In this document: piece by piece, positions 5,017-42,913 of the stretch
Numbering within the stretch: the first letter of the stretch is position 1
Layout: every line of letters begins with the position of its first letter
Virus record (IMG/VR): IMGVR_UViG_3300031237_000001
Coordinates: 1-64,000 of that record
Origin: a virus
Length of the DNA: 64,000 nt
Reading direction: 5' to 3' (one strand)
Position numbers and translations under genes: made by a program
The notes under the pieces: generated by a model
Database searches by the model: none
What the model was told of the DNA's origin: nothing
What the model saw: the letters and a program-made list of their open reading frames with translations, nothing else

Positions 5017-5243
5017 GCCGCTGTGAAGACTGGGTCGGCCTGGAAGCTCCCGGCCTGGTCGTACCTTGCGGCGCCTACCGCCTCCACCCCCACTCTGTAA
5101 TCGGCCTGGCCTGTACGCTTCCCCAGGGACACAAGGGACCGCACCACGCTCACACATTTACCGCCTGCCTCTGCGTCTGGCCCCAGGCGTCGGCCTGTCC
5201 GCATTGGGAGGCGGCGGAGAAGGAGCACGTATGCACGAAGTAG
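5013..5243 (+). CDS. Cys/His-rich small protein (76 aa)
   Basis: GTG 5013 overlaps the previous stop (GTGA). The protein has a segment CTLPQGHKGPHHAHT followed by CLCVW and CPHW. The gene product at 15053 has a matching segment (CTREDKHPPSHHAHT, then CVAVW), so the two are paralogues. C-x-x-x-x-G-H-x-G-P-H is a common small phage motif, probably metal binding; role unknown. Confidence 0.65.
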   Translation: MSRCEDWVGLEAPGLVVPCGAYRLHPHSVIGLACTLPQGHKGPHHAHTFTACLCVWPQASACPHWEAAEKEHVCTK

Positions 5244-19796: not shown

Positions 19797-21917
19797 ATGG
19801 CGACTAAGTTCACGAAAATCGCCCTTCCCGAGTTGAACCTGCCGGTTCAAATGAGCCTGCTCGCCGGGCAGACGCCTCGGGCGGCCCGCGACCTTTACAC
19901 GCCGTTTCCACACGTCTACCGGAATCTGGAAGCTCTACCCAAAGTCATCCAGGACTGCGTGTCCAAGTCGCCTGGCCTCGTCGGTATGGACATGGAGTAC
20001 GATACGTCGAGGGGTAACAAGCCGTCGATCCTCGGCCTCTCCGGGTTGAACTACGCGATCTCGGTACCCTGGTCGGAAGAGTGCGTCGGCGCGTTACGTA
20101 CCTGCATCGACCGGGGCCTGAAGCTCGTCGCTTATTCTACGATGTCGGCGGATAAGCCCTGCGTGGACCCCTACGTGAAGACGCGACGAGAAGACTGGCT
20201 CGACGCGATGCTCAGTCACTACCTCGCTCATCAGGACCTGTGTAAGCGGCCTAGTAAAGAGGAGGATGATGACCCGGGTGCCCTCGGCTTCATGAACCTG
20301 TGGACCGCCTACTCGCTCGTCGGGGACGCGCCGAACTGGAAGCGCTGCCGGGGCATCGATTGTCACGGTCCCTGCCCGTCTCACTCCGTCTTCGACTACA
20401 ACGCCGCCGACTCCTGGGCCGGCCTCGTCATCGAGATAGAGAACGGTAAGGCGCTCGACGCCATGGGTGTCCCCGCTTCTCTACGCGCCGAGATGCTGGA
20501 GCTGAGCGACCTCTGCGCGTCGATGGAGCGGCGTGGGATCGGCGTAGACAGAAGCGTCGTCACCTCCTTAGACGCGGAATTGAAGTCTCGGCAAGCGGCC
20601 CTGTTCAAGTCGAACGAGCCGTTCAACCCGAAGTCTCCCAAGATGGTCGTCGCGTGGTTCAAGGAGCAGGCCCGCCTTCTCAAGCTGCCTGAGCTAGCCG
20701 TTGAGAAGAACGACAAGGAGAGCGTTCAGGAGGCGGTGCTCGCCTTGGGTAAACGCTACCTGATCGACGGCGAGAAGCCTGCCGAGATCGTCGAGGGCTT
20801 ACGAGACGTGGCTGATCTACCCGCGCCTGGCCTCGCCCTCTGTGATCTGTACGACTTCAAGGCGGGTGGAAAGGGTCTCAAAGCTTGGTTCGACGAGCGG
20901 TACTTCGGCCGCGATGGCCGTCTTCATCCTCGGTTCATCACTACTGGTGCTTCCACCGGCCGCCTCTCCTCGTCCCGTCCGAACTGGCACAACGTCGTCA
21001 AGGCCGGTTGGGGCCTGAAGATGCGCTCCGCTCTCGTCGCCGCCCCCGGCTACCAGATCCTGCGGGCCGACTGGAAGCAGCTTGAGTTACGTATGTGTCT
21101 CTACCTCTCCGGGTACGATCCCAAGGACATTCAGGGGGACGCCTTCACGTGGCTCGTCGAGCACAGCAGCGGCCAGTTCTCCCGCGCTTCTAAGTTGACG
21201 GGGAAGAAGGAACGGGACTTGGCGAAGATCACGTCGCACGGCACGGACTATCTCATGGGCTTCAAGGTCTTCACGTACGACGAGATGGACTCGCTCTCAA
21301 CGAAGCGGGCCGAGGCAGCGGGCGCCCTGCGTCTCTACCGGGACTGGGAGTACGGCGGTGGCGTCGTCGGGTTCACCGGCGTTCATCTCGCGGAGATGCT
21401 GTTCGGTGACAAGAGCTTCGAGTCCCGCCGTAAAGCCCTGGAGATTCAGGAGGACGTGTACATCGGCGCCTTCTCCTCCATTCGTAGATGGCAACGGCAG
21501 GTCCTGGCCGAGATCGAAGCCCGTGGCTACGTCAAGTACCCGACCGGCCGTTTCCTGCGTCTCTCCGGGTCCTCTTGGGACGAGGAGTCCCGGCCCCGGG
21601 CGATGGAAGAGGACGCGAAGATAGGCGTCGCTGCTCTGGGCCAAGGCGTCTCCGCCGATCACGTTCAGGCGGTGATGCTCCGTTTTCGGCGTGAGCACGG
21701 CGACCTAGGAGTACCGACGCTCCAGGTTCACGACGAGCTTCTCTACGAGGTCCCGCTTGAGTGGGGCCGCGAGAAGTGTGCCGAGTTCATCCGGCCGATG
21801 ACGGAGGAGACGTGGCGCCTACCCGGCTTCTCGGCGCCGGTTGACGCCGGCCTCGGCGCGTCGTGGCTCGAAGCGATGCAGGCCGCCGACGACCCGAAAA
21901 GGAGACTGCAAGTATGA
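19797..21917 (+). CDS. Family A DNA polymerase with 3'-5' exonuclease domain (706 aa)
   Basis: ATG 19797 was chosen over an upstream in-frame start that would overlap the micro-gene. An exonuclease motif, DMEYD, begins at residue 65. The polymerase part has the STGRLSS segment, motif A DWKQLELR from D425, motif B with R473, K477, H481 and Y485, and motif C VHDE at 644-647. There is no 5'-3' exonuclease domain, as usual for phage enzymes. H481 takes the place of Phe762 of E. coli Pol I, a position known to govern nucleotide choice and speed. Expected role: replication of the phage genome with the ATPases at 14115 and 27381. Its 3' end is part of a 28-bp repeat. Confidence 0.92.
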   Translation: MATKFTKIALPELNLPVQMSLLAGQTPRAARDLYTPFPHVYRNLEALPKVIQDCVSKSPGLVGMDMEYDTSRGNKPSILGLSGLNYAISVPWSEECVGALRTCIDRGLKLVAYSTMSADKPCVDPYVKTRREDWLDAMLSHYLAHQDLCKRPSKEEDDDPGALGFMNLWTAYSLVGDAPNWKRCRGIDCHGPCPSHSVFDYNAADSWAGLVIEIENGKALDAMGVPASLRAEMLELSDLCASMERRGIGVDRSVVTSLDAELKSRQAALFKSNEPFNPKSPKMVVAWFKEQARLLKLPELAVEKNDKESVQEAVLALGKRYLIDGEKPAEIVEGLRDVADLPAPGLALCDLYDFKAGGKGLKAWFDERYFGRDGRLHPRFITTGASTGRLSSSRPNWHNVVKAGWGLKMRSALVAAPGYQILRADWKQLELRMCLYLSGYDPKDIQGDAFTWLVEHSSGQFSRASKLTGKKERDLAKITSHGTDYLMGFKVFTYDEMDSLSTKRAEAAGALRLYRDWEYGGGVVGFTGVHLAEMLFGDKSFESRRKALEIQEDVYIGAFSSIRRWQRQVLAEIEARGYVKYPTGRFLRLSGSSWDEESRPRAMEEDAKIGVAALGQGVSADHVQAVMLRFRREHGDLGVPTLQVHDELLYEVPLEWGREKCAEFIRPMTEETWRLPGFSAPVDAGLGASWLEAMQAADDPKRRLQV
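21865..21892 (+). repeat. 28-bp direct repeat, copy 1 (polymerase 3' end)
   Basis: GGCTCGAAGCGATGCAGGCC and the next 8 nt occur here and again, identical, at 22065-22092. Both code for LEAMQAADD near a C-terminus ending RRLQV, and both are followed by AAGTATGAAG, the start of the next gene. The unit is the end of one gene plus the initiation site of the next. Confidence 0.85.
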
Positions 21918-22117
21918 AGGAAGGAACTCTTGTGCGAGCCGTCACAGACGGCGCAGAGTACGTAGGGTACTTCATTTCCGGCCAAGAATACGATTTCGTA
22001 CTGTCACGGAGATGGCCGTCTCGTGGACCGGATGACCGTTTTGGGCTTTTGACCGAGTGCTTCCGGCTCGAAGCGATGCAGGCCGCCGACGATTCTGCGA
22101 GGAGGTTACAAGTATGA
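21914..22117 (+). CDS. Small protein ending in a copy of the polymerase C-terminus (67 aa)
   Basis: ATG 21914 overlaps the polymerase stop, behind AGGAGACTGCAAGT. A beta-rich N-terminal part (GTLVRAVTDGAEYVGYFISG) is followed by LEAMQAADDSARRLQV, nearly the same as the last 16 residues of PolA (LEAMQAADDPKRRLQV). The gene may have arisen, or been joined here, through the 28-bp repeat. Function unknown. Confidence 0.7.
   Translation: MKEGTLVRAVTDGAEYVGYFISGQEYDFVLSRRWPSRGPDDRFGLLTECFRLEAMQAADDSARRLQV
22065..22092 (+). repeat. 28-bp direct repeat, copy 2
   Basis: Identical to 21865-21892, exactly 200 nt downstream. It lies at the 3' end of the small gene at 21914 and is followed by the same start context for the HD-domain gene. 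Confidence 0.85.
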
Positions 22118-22650
22118 AGTTCGCTGTCGAAGAAGCCTTTCGCACGATGTACGGTCTCGTTACAGATCGCGTAACATCTCTGGCGTTGCGAGAATGTTGT
22201 CGTTATGCCCTGGGAGACCCGAGGTTCGCTAAGGGCTACGGCTCCTCGGTGGACACGTCTCATAAGCACCACGCCTATTCAGGCGGCCTCGTCGTTCACA
22301 CCGCCGAGGTTGTTACCGCCGCGGTAAGCATGGGAGAGACAGTTGGCGCGGATCTGGACGTGCTCATCACAGCCGCGATCTGGCATGACTTCGCCAAGAT
22401 CCACGATTACGATGAGCACGGAAACGGCACGAAGTACCGGGATCTTATCCGGCACGTCTCTGGTAGTTTCGCTGAGTTTACATGGTACTGGGATGTGATA
22501 GAGCATCCAAAGTACGAGGAGATCAGCCACTGTATCCTGGCTCATCACGGCCGCAAGGAATGGGGCTCGCCTGTTGAGCCGCAGACGAAGGAAGCCGCCT
22601 GCCTGCATTACGCCGACATGCTTTCTATGCAGTTCGGAGCAGGTCGTTAA
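22114..22650 (+). CDS. HD-domain phosphohydrolase, YhaM-like (178 aa)
   Basis: ATG 22114 overlaps the preceding stop. The HD metal site is complete: HH at 52-53 in the segment KHHAYSGGLVVHT, H62, and HD at 91-92 in WHDFAK. Further residues follow in ILAHHG and LHYADMLSM. The order and wording are closest to the HD domain of YhaM-type 3'-5' exonucleases; the OB-fold part of YhaM is missing. Expected activity: a metal-dependent phosphodiesterase or nucleotidase acting on nucleic acid or nucleotides. Confidence 0.8.
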   Translation: MKFAVEEAFRTMYGLVTDRVTSLALRECCRYALGDPRFAKGYGSSVDTSHKHHAYSGGLVVHTAEVVTAAVSMGETVGADLDVLITAAIWHDFAKIHDYDEHGNGTKYRDLIRHVSGSFAEFTWYWDVIEHPKYEEISHCILAHHGRKEWGSPVEPQTKEAACLHYADMLSMQFGAGR

Positions 22651-22816: not shown

Positions 22817-22857
22817 TCGCCCCGGGTAACCCTGTAACCTTCTTCTTACCAGGAGCG

Positions 22858-22952
22858 TCTTATCTATAGAAGCCGAAGATAAGATGCTTACCCACACGAA
22901 ACCAACCCACCGGACCCAAGAAGAGATACTCGTTTCAAACGAGTCCTCTCTT
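22858..22952 (+). promoter_or_regulatory. Two hairpins before a TTG-started gene
   Basis: TCTTATC 22858-64 pairs with GATAAGA 22878-84. ACTCGTT 22928-34 pairs with AACGAGT 22938-44, extended by AAGAG 22921-25 with CTCTT 22948-52. The second hairpin covers the TTG start at 22951, so it may regulate translation or be a weak terminator (no clear U run). A 24-codon frame, 22884-22958, begins between them. Confidence 0.5.
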
Positions 22953-23352
22953 GCCTGAGCCGAAGGTACCCCGTAAGAAGATAGTTTACGCGGCTCTGGA
23001 ACCGCCCGACGACGCCGACCCGCGCCGGACGCCGCGTGCTATTGGCATGGCGATTAACAACGCGGTCATAGAGGCGCGTGCCCCCGAGACCCTCGGCGGT
23101 CCTATTCAACCGGCCCGGCTGAGAAGCCTGCGTGAGTACACCTTGGCCTTTGTCGAGCCGGCCTTCAACCACATGGAGGAGGGCGTCTTCGACATGCGTC
23201 CCGAGGAGCTCGTCTTTATCTTCTGTGCCGCCGCCGCCTTCGTCCAGGCCAAGGTGATCGCCGCGCACGAGAAGGACGACAAGTTGGCGTCCAAGCTCTT
23301 GCAGAACTCCGTGGCCCTGGCCGACTTCTTCCGGCCGGAGAAAGCCTCCTAG
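22951..23352 (+). CDS. Helical hypothetical protein (133 aa)
   Basis: The first usable start is TTG 22951; no ATG or GTG lies nearby, and the codon sits in a hairpin stem. The first 25 residues are Pro/Lys-rich; the remainder is helical (VFIFCAAAAFVQAKVIAAHEK). The real start may be different. Function unknown. Confidence 0.6.
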   Translation: MPEPKVPRKKIVYAALEPPDDADPRRTPRAIGMAINNAVIEARAPETLGGPIQPARLRSLREYTLAFVEPAFNHMEEGVFDMRPEELVFIFCAAAAFVQAKVIAAHEKDDKLASKLLQNSVALADFFRPEKAS

Positions 23353-40738: not shown

Positions 40739-40753
40739 AGACGGAACCTCTCC

Positions 40754-40764
40754 ACCCCATTTTA
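40754..40764 (-). promoter_or_regulatory. Recurring late-region motif TAAAATGGGGT
   Basis: Reads TAAAATGGGGT on the - strand before the gene at 40568-40738. The same or near-same sequence is found at 48932, 51249, 53441, 54743 and 61294. TAAAAT resembles a -10 box, but no -35 is seen. Confidence 0.45.
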
Positions 40765-40804
40765 TCGTCGTCCCTCTACCCGACCGTTTCTACGTAAAAA
40801 AGCC

Positions 40805-40833
40805 TTGACTTCTCCTCGGGGACCTGCTAACAT
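40805..40833 (+). promoter_or_regulatory. Promoter of the structured RNA
   Basis: TTGACT at 40805-40810, a 17-nt spacer and TAACAT at 40828-40833. The 36 nt from CTTGAC to the next ATG align without gaps to the promoter at 61941-61976, with ACCTGCTAA identical. It points to the + strand, against the late operon, and transcription would start near 40840. Confidence 0.7.
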
Positions 40834-40840
40834 GACTTTA

Positions 40841-41206
40841 TGAGCAGACGGTTCGCGCCCTCGGTGGCTCCGCTTCCCAACCCTAACCTTGGCCACCGAG
40901 GGTCTGCTCATCGTTACGATGCGCGACCAAAGGATGAAGGGGGCCAGCCGAGGGACGCCGGCGGCGACCCCGCCGGAACCGCGGAGATACTGGCCTATGT
41001 CCGCCCGTCGGCAGCCCCCTTCACAAGTTGCAGGACCGAACCGCCTAGCGTGGACGTAGGCCCTGCTCAGAAGCTGTGCGATGATCTAAGCCGCCTTTAG
41101 GGGGTAGGAGAAGATGCCGTCAGTTGTTGCTTGGGGCCGTCTTGGTCCCCGCTTGCAAGGAGCGACACAATGCGCGGCTATGCAGGTTCGAGTCCTGCTC
41201 GCACAG
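40841..41206 (+). ncRNA. Large structured RNA with tRNA-like 3' domain
   Basis: About 366 nt downstream of a promoter, on the strand opposite to its neighbours. Perfect helices: 40841-48/40903-10; 40858-68/40892-902 (11 bp); 40935-44/41014-23 (10 bp); 40947-51/41008-12; 40958-64/40970-76; 41030-34/41062-66 with 41043-47/41057-61. The 3' part copies a tRNA: CTGTGCGA 41074-81 pairs with TCGCACAG 41199-206; the 3' strand directly follows a T-arm GCAGG-TTCGAGT-CCTGC (41182-98). A 6-bp helix (41089-94/41174-79) stands where tmRNA has its P2. Between them is 41125-31/41161-67. It is not a normal tRNA (133 nt, no D-arm). A tmRNA-like element, another phage RNA, or a tRNA relic at an attachment site are the alternatives. 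Confidence 0.7.
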
Positions 41207-41214
41207 TTCCATTT

Positions 41215-41967
41215 CTAAGCCATCAGTAAGGAGTTCGGGGAGTAGATGGAGGACCCGGTCGGCCCGGCCAAGGCTTCCCTCGGGGCGATAGCCGGGGCGC
41301 CCAACTCTAAGCCCTCAGCCGACGCCATCCCGGCGATTCGCTCCAGGCACAGGGCTAGTTGACCTGTGTACTGCGACCCCTGACCCTTGACGTGGATGAC
41401 TTGACCCGCCCGAGGGTCCCCGGCGATCTGCCATGCGGCCCACTTGAGGGCCTCGACCCAAACGTCGAAGTAGATGTCGTCGAAGGGCAGGGCGGTTGAC
41501 AGGAGCGTCGAGGCGAGTACCTTCGTCGGCCTCTTCTTGTACGTGCCCTGAACGATGTACGTGGAGCACGCCGCGTTCGATGGGACGCGGGGATAGACGC
41601 GGAAGGCCCGCCGTGCCCGCTCGTACCCGATGGCGTGGGGCATCGCTCGAACGTGCGTCTCTCTCAAGTCCTGGATGACGGAGAGATCGAAGCGAGCCGG
41701 CGGGTCCGAGTTCAGTAGTAGTAGGGCGGCCAGTCTCAGCCCGTAGAAGTCGGCCGGTACGCTCACCGCGGGCGGCCCGTGATCCTGTTCATCGGGGATG
41801 AGGTAGAAGGGCGGTAGGGAAGCCAGCGTCTCGCGCCAGTCGAAGGACATCCAGATCAGGTTCGTCGCCATGTTCGCTATCGCCGCGGCGAACTCGTCCT
41901 CCACGTTCCGGTTGAGCTGCTTCGCCGCGATCTGAATAGCATCCTGATACTTGTACGTCGCCGCCAT
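41215..41967 (-). CDS. Adaptor-like head-tail protein, copy A (250 aa)
   Basis: ATG 41967. Helical N-terminus (DAIQIAAKQLNRNVEDEF), then IWMSFDWRETLASL, a beta part ending in GTYKK, and GDPRAG with (Y)xGQLA near the C-terminus. These points recur in the protein at 42910 (MWMAAPWRWTVGAF, GTYKK, DDPRAG, SGQRA), so the two are paralogues. The layout resembles tail tubular A (T7 gp11-type) adaptors, which join portal and nozzle. A phage with two different copies might stack two rings. Confidence 0.65.
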   Translation of the reverse strand: MAATYKYQDAIQIAAKQLNRNVEDEFAAAIANMATNLIWMSFDWRETLASLPPFYLIPDEQDHGPPAVSVPADFYGLRLAALLLLNSDPPARFDLSVIQDLRETHVRAMPHAIGYERARRAFRVYPRVPSNAACSTYIVQGTYKKRPTKVLASTLLSTALPFDDIYFDVWVEALKWAAWQIAGDPRAGQVIHVKGQGSQYTGQLALCLERIAGMASAEGLELGAPAIAPREALAGPTGSSIYSPNSLLMA

Positions 41968-42480: not shown

Positions 42481-42510
42481 TTGACAGGGGCCGAAGACAT
42501 CCGTTAGAAT
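42481..42510 (+). promoter_or_regulatory. Sigma-70-like promoter of the inverted gene
   Basis: TTGACA at 42481-42486 and TAGAAT at 42505-42510 with an 18-nt spacer (or TTAGAA with 17). It faces right, opposite to the late genes around it. The -10 ends only 7 nt before the ATG at 42518, so the message would have almost no leader. Confidence 0.8.
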
Positions 42511-42517
42511 AGAGGAC

Positions 42518-42913
42518 ATGAGCTTAGAAAGATGGATTCACTTCCAACCCGCCTTCGACAAGAGAAGTTCAGATCCCAACAAAAGCTACGGTATACACGG
42601 CGTTGACATGACGTGGTACGTTCGTGGTTCGGAAGGGGCGGTGCAATGGAAGGTCTACACACACTGGCACTGGCTGAAAATGTCAATACAAGAACCAATG
42701 ACGGTAGATCTGGGTTACCATTCTTATAAGCCTCGTTATGAAGGGCAGGACTGCATTACCGAATCCTGCGAGATTTTGTACGGAAAGCCCTGTTACTACG
42801 ATGGTTCTTCATTGAATGCGGAACCTGTGTTTAAGATCCTTTTGGAAAAGGGTAGCGATGCGGTCTGGGAACACTTAGAGGGGTTTTACCGCTCGGTCTT
42901 CTCTGAAGGCTAA
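42518..42913 (+). CDS. Accessory (moron-like) gene with its own promoter (131 aa)
   Basis: A lone + strand gene inside the - strand late operon, with its own promoter and A/T-richer codons than its neighbours. These are the marks of a moron. ATG 42518 is close behind GAGGAC and lies nearly at the expected transcription start. The protein is soluble, aromatic and His/Tyr-rich (MTWYVRG, WKVYTHWHWLKMS, GYHSYKPRYEG, CYYDGSS). No family recognised. Such genes often alter the host (superinfection exclusion, anti-defence). The stop overlaps that of the adaptor gene opposite by 4 nt. Confidence 0.75.
   Translation: MSLERWIHFQPAFDKRSSDPNKSYGIHGVDMTWYVRGSEGAVQWKVYTHWHWLKMSIQEPMTVDLGYHSYKPRYEGQDCITESCEILYGKPCYYDGSSLNAEPVFKILLEKGSDAVWEHLEGFYRSVFSEG

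Follow-up and report, generated by a model that had tools for sequence, protein, structure and literature searches.

Between two structural genes of a soil-type virus with a bacterial host lies a stretch of DNA that probably encodes a functional structured RNA, and the tRNA-like end of this RNA is very likely a genuine feature. The best explanation, which we hold with modest conviction, is an inserted non-coding gene, the tail of which RNase P and 3' exonucleases would turn into a non-decoding tRNA mimic, leaving the 5' domain with a defined end. It is supported by a T-arm and acceptor combination far above chance, an encoded CCA in register, a stable two-domain fold of the + strand, a well-placed promoter, and the occurrence of the same long tRNA-like layout in T4 rnaC and several phage RNAs. 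Against it count the absence of a homolog from any collection and the fold z-score of the 3' domain, which is only -1.9. The window, that is, the whole stretch of DNA analysed, comprises 64.0 kb out of a 68,180-bp IMG/VR virus record. The features of the element are as follows.

40739-41214, no strand assigned: inserted stretch between two late genes, from comparison with the relatives L126 and L127
40805-40833, + strand: sigma-70-like promoter TTGACT-17-TAACAT with an extended -10 (TGC before it, the TG one base 5' of the -10)
40841-41069, + strand: 5' structured domain with closing helix TGAGCAG/CTGCTCA (40841-47/41063-69), pair probabilities near 1
40858-40902, + strand: 11-bp hairpin CCCTCGGTGGC/GCCACCGAGGG, from the fold
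40935-41023, + strand: branched arm TGAAGGGGGC/GCCCCCTTCA with GCCGA/TCGGC, CCGGCGG/CCGCCGG and GCGGA/TCCGC, from the fold
41043-41061, + strand: small hairpin GCCTA/TAGGC on the 3' side of the 5' domain, from the fold
41072-41081, + strand: 5' strand of the acceptor-like helix, AGCTGTGCGA, from the pair list of the fold
41085-41111, + strand: weak D-like hairpin GCC-G-CC TTTA GG-G-GGT, fold probability about 0.65
41116-41178, + strand: long stacked arm GCCGT/GCGGC, TGTTGCT/AGCGACA, GGGGCC/GGTCCC, from the fold
41182-41198, + strand: T-arm GCAGG-TTCGAGT-CCTGC, the sole GGTTCRANYCC in the window on either strand
41199-41211, + strand: 3' strand of the acceptor-like helix, TCGCACAGTT (41199-41208), followed by CCA (41209-41211)

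Genomic setting and promoter

The window has the early genes of the virus (DNA polymerase, PD-(D/E)XK nuclease, Sak4-like protein) in + orientation; beyond about 28 kb follow the structural genes (terminase, portal, capsid), in - orientation. The element is situated inside a 476-bp gap, and the frames that flank it are both on the - strand, in agreement with a preliminary description of this DNA that had placed late genes of the opposite strand on either side. The capsid protein has a weak match (27%) to that of a Tunturiibacter phage, and this sequence likeness only hints at a host among the Acidobacteriota; a major-capsid search of genome contigs for a host or a prophage found none. Elsewhere in the window, a 55-nt stretch is present in two copies (21865-21919 and 22065-22119), 84% identical and 200 nt apart, at the 3' ends of the DNA polymerase gene and the next small frame.

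Relatives were gathered through searches with the capsid protein and the adjacent gene. In the closest two that cover the region, about 10 nt separate the homologs of the flanking genes, which points to an insertion in the window phage or a loss in both relatives. None of the related loci reached via the capsid and the adjacent gene carries the element. Several relatives have ordinary tRNA genes in their late region (tRNA-Met, Asn, Ala, Gln, Tyr, Leu and Pro), and in the window phage no conventional tRNA or tmRNA was found by ARAGORN or Rfam. An 8-nt repeat, TCTAAGCC, occurs at 41085-41092, inside the tRNA-like domain, and again at 41214-41221, at the right edge of the insertion; the likeness extends over 21 nt at 71% and is possibly a trace of the insertion event.

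A second + strand insert is found 1.3 kb away, at 42481-42913. It has its own promoter, TTGACA-18-TAGAAT at 42481, and contains a foreign-looking, apparently leaderless gene for a protein of 131 aa (42518-42913), with a G+C content of 0.56 at codon position 3 as against about 0.84 in its neighbours. The phage matches of this protein, all in actinophages, are hypothetical proteins from Microbacterium and Mycobacterium phages that share about 30% identity with it. The late region therefore takes up such genes, and two inserts with promoters of their own are side by side in it, one with a protein and the other apparently with an RNA.

The promoter before the element, already named in the preliminary description, is among the five best in the window and is the sole promoter-like match between 40300 and 41700. 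Sites scoring at least 10.5 number five, compared with 1.15 expected in 128 kb of strand, and all of them are on the + strand, like the early genes. On the same strand, no intrinsic-terminator-like site was found 3' of the element up to 41700.

The predicted transcript start coincides with an ATG at 40840, which opens an 86-codon frame (40840-41100), and it could be imagined that the insert holds a leaderless small protein gene. The nearby + strand gene at 42518-42913 likewise starts with ATGAGC right after its promoter, and this resemblance to a neighbouring moron keeps the protein reading alive. It is nevertheless quite improbable. The frame has a codon score of -12 and a flat G+C content at the three positions (0.70/0.60/0.66), gives no Pfam match, no PHROG match better than E = 0.32 and no tblastn match in phages; it consists of perfect inverted repeats and runs into the tRNA-like domain, where it ends.

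Fold of the predicted RNA

The fold of the predicted RNA (40840-41206) has a z-score of -3.9, none of 100 shuffles being as stable. By itself, the 5' domain (40840-41072) reaches -4.94, with none of 200 shuffles as stable, and the 3' domain is mildly more stable than its shuffles (-1.88). As the complementary strand of the same stretch gives only -1.86, the + strand is favoured. In a coarse scan of the window in 200-nt pieces, the element is the third most over-stable piece and the second such place. The most over-stable piece (22818-22995, + strand, dE -25.8 kcal/mol) is located 5' of the gene at 22951 and has a long-range closure CTTCTTAC/GTAAGAAG; it has no Rfam match, and no sequence match in the examined parts of the two closest relatives.

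The fold ensemble of the element (40805-41211 with its promoter) is nearly single-valued and consists of two closed domains, 40841-41069 and 41072-41211, with two bases between them. The helices listed in the preliminary description are real and well defined in this ensemble, except that a local 10-bp pairing, ATGAGCAGAC/GTCTGCTCAT (40840-49/40902-11), competes with the long-range closing helix of the 5' domain and loses in the model, where the latter has a probability near 1; consequently, the helices listed earlier cannot all coexist.

In the 3' domain, the acceptor-like helix that had been described as 41074-81/41199-206 is confirmed and extends to 10 bp, A41072-A41081 with T41199-T41208, including one G-U pair. 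The T-stem (41182-86/41194-98) is perfect and abuts this helix without a gap, its TTCGAGT loop being as first reported, and the encoded CCA, which had escaped the preliminary description, follows the acceptor strand directly and in register. A T-arm with a perfect 7-nt acceptor partner 20-200 nt upstream is observed once, compared with 0.0033 expected per shuffled 64 kb. At the position of the anticodon arm of a tRNA is the 63-nt stacked arm, which is without an anticodon loop. The earlier statement that both a D-stem and an anticodon arm are missing is correct for the latter; a weak D-like hairpin does exist, with pairs 41090-92/41103-05 and a sequence, GGTAGGAG at 41103-41110, that by eye resembles a D-loop. 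A reading as tRNA-Sec, suggested by an acceptor of 8-9 bp and the GGGGCC/GGTCCCC arm, was dropped because there is no anticodon arm.

Searches for similar sequences gave little. With blastn, no match above chance was obtained in INPHARED phages, plasmids and 16 related phage records, and an exact-pattern scan with a 19-mer of the 5' domain had zero matches. Rfam, at gathering and at permissive thresholds, returned only an antisense match of the T-arm to Plastid-ycf2 (16.7 bits), and its tRNA model did not match the element. ARAGORN recognised no tRNA at this place with default settings and gave only noise with the intron and low-threshold options. The earlier view, according to which this is a structured phage RNA not described before and ending like a tRNA at its 3' side, finds support within the limits of an RNA known from one sequence.

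The tRNA-like end could also be a remnant. According to this alternative, which we regard as unlikely, a tRNA gene has degenerated, its anticodon region being replaced by an insert and its function lost, and the 5' hairpins are unrelated inserted DNA. The T-arm, the CCA and the D-loop-like GGTAGGAG indeed look tRNA-derived, relatives carry several tRNA genes, and tRNAs with large insertions are seen in the contigs L048, L075 and L078. However, perfect pairing of acceptor and T-stem would not be maintained in a gene that has lost its function, the tRNA-like part is preceded by a strong promoter and by a 5' domain with z = -4.9, and the ordinary tRNAs of the nearest relatives are located elsewhere, mostly on the late strand.

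Alternatively, the T-arm and the 3' acceptor strand could represent the 3' end of a host tRNA (ending in GCAGGTTCGAGTCCTGCTCGCACAG) used by an integrase, and a number of the T-arms outside recognised tRNAs in viral contigs are similar by eye. The element is probably not such an attP site, and very little weight can be given to the idea: in an exact-pattern scan the tRNA-like 3' end occurred in 0 of 84,980 species genomes and in no viral contig, a scan of the larger proteins found no integrase, the 5' acceptor strand is present too, and the sequence before the T-arm is not an anticodon half.

The preliminary description had also considered a reduced tmRNA. With its length of about 370 nt, its tRNA-like end and its long arm, the element is similar to tmRNA and permuted tmRNA (RF04321), and the late operon of one relative contains a true permuted tmRNA. 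The covariance-model search proposed at that time, carried out with Rfam, gave no match to any tRNA or tmRNA model, and for the tmRNA and permuted tmRNA models this holds up to E = 10 (cmscan). The characteristic properties of tmRNA are absent from the element: three-frame translation yields no tag frame with an end like ALAA-stop, the D-loop motif GGNTTCGACGGG (SmpB site) does not occur on the + strand even when 3 substitutions are allowed, and there is no acceptor G3-U70, the sole G-U being 41073/41207, pair 1 or 2. Furthermore, the acceptor strands are in non-permuted order and only 117 nt apart. A tmRNA, whether complete, reduced or permuted, is thus the least probable of the readings. The permuted tmRNA gene of the relative (L163:1033-1438; 84.5 bits) encodes the tag AKPNGFALPLAA. 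A 22-nt stretch of it is 86% alike to 40932-40953, which was judged a chance likeness in view of its E value of 0.54 and the different pairing partners.

Proposed processing and role

The preferred reading is that of a non-coding RNA gene of the "moron" type, placed in the late region with an orientation opposite to that of its genes. Transcription by the host RNA polymerase would begin at about 40840, driven by a sigma-70 promoter like those before the early genes, and the transcript would fold into the two closed domains, a 5' domain of about 230 nt and a tRNA-like domain of about 139 nt. The latter may be taken as a tRNA by the tRNA-processing enzymes of the host. RNase P would then cut at about 41072-41074, and 3' exonucleases would trim to the encoded CCA. 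The preliminary description had already proposed a precursor cut by RNase P at 41074; this idea fits the anatomy of the element, in which 41072-41074 is the likely cut region. The outcome would be a stable tRNA mimic, unable to decode since it has no anticodon arm. On a strand without a nearby terminator, the same cut would also provide the 5' domain with a defined 3' end. Other tRNA-like RNAs of phages and viruses are known substrates of RNase P (review PMC11143913). It must be noted that the acceptor-like helix has 10 bp compared with the 7 bp of a tRNA, a length at which RNase P, the CCA enzymes or EF-Tu might reject it. The consensus promoter, the fold, the tRNA-like ends including the CCA, and the insertion with its absence from relatives are observed; we infer transcription, the RNase P cut, stability and function of the element, and function is the weakest step of the proposal.

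The likeliest purpose would be directed against the host, with the RNA acting as a stable tRNA mimic or a sponge for a host factor that binds or attacks tRNA. It is known that phage tRNAs counteract defences which attack tRNAs (PMC10264068, PMC11555353), and this makes a role as tRNA mimic plausible; as the element lacks an anticodon loop, it is less likely to be a decoy specifically for anticodon nucleases. Alternatively, the tRNA-like part could be a carrier that stabilises the 5' domain, the latter being the working part. No antisense target of the element was found. A more far-reaching speculation, and a rather doubtful one, sees in the element the first known case of a mobile phage gene for an RNA that joins a compact domain to a non-decoding tRNA mimic processed by host tRNA enzymes. 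This RNA would be made early from a host-type promoter against a tRNA-acting defence of the host and would belong to a broader unnamed set of long tRNA-like phage RNAs, with T4 species 1 RNA as another member. In any case, the element provides a small, testable case for RNase P processing, CCA handling, EF-Tu binding and protection from tRNA-cutting defences.

Relation to other phage RNAs

Ornate phage-encoded RNAs near tRNAs are also represented by GOLLD and ROOL, and GOLLD linkers sometimes contain tRNAs (PMC12286853). These RNAs are far longer than the element (many GOLLD members exceed 800 nt), which has no Rfam match. M3 RNA and C4 antisense RNA are phage RNAs that are cleaved by RNase P (PMC11143913), whereas such processing of the element is only proposed.

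Long tRNA-like RNAs may be commoner in phages than annotated. A survey of 1.45 Mb of phage contigs revealed 54 T-arms outside ARAGORN genes. For about a dozen of these, a stretch located 20-300 nt upstream can pair perfectly as a 7-bp acceptor, where a simple count gives about one expected. Several of them, among others in L102, L111, L075 and L074, have a total length of 105-160 nt. Long tRNA-like RNAs of this size, with acceptor and T-arm and missed by ARAGORN, are located in unrelated phage contigs at about 7812 (-) in L102, 7192 (+) in L111, 1210 (-) in L075, 9633 (+) in L074 and 3925 (+) in L061. Near 5104 (+) in L078, a whole tRNA gene is apparently contained in the anticodon region of another.

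The stable species 1 and 2 RNAs of T4 have been known for about fifty years, and no role has been assigned to them. Species 1 RNA (rnaC, band C) has 139 nt, belongs to the T4 tRNA cluster and is of unknown role (PMC3014915, PMC12685909). In eight diverged copies, its fold comprises a T-arm, acceptor-like ends and two arms without an anticodon arm, and both the 10-bp arm and the T-stem show covariation. A homolog in Enterobacter phage EnC15 (L150:319-471) keeps the tRNA-like ends but differs strongly between them, as though arms of the interior had been swapped. A model built from the eight phages has no match across the whole window and, when compared with the element itself, matches just the 17-nt T-arm (5.6 bits); the two RNAs therefore share a shape and, as far as can be tested, not descent. 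From its sequence, the element can be regarded as rnaC-like in layout and, within the same limits, not homologous. It would be a second, unrelated phage RNA with this layout, encoded by an inserted gene that stands alone under its own promoter, and this suggests that phages repeatedly select tRNA mimics without a decoding arm. T4 rnaC and the tRNA-like part of the element (41073-41211) are both 139 nt long, and both have acceptor-like ends, a canonical T-arm adjoining the acceptor, two arms in the interior and no anticodon arm. In contrast, rnaC resides among tRNA genes and has neither the encoded CCA nor the 230-nt 5' domain that the element possesses.
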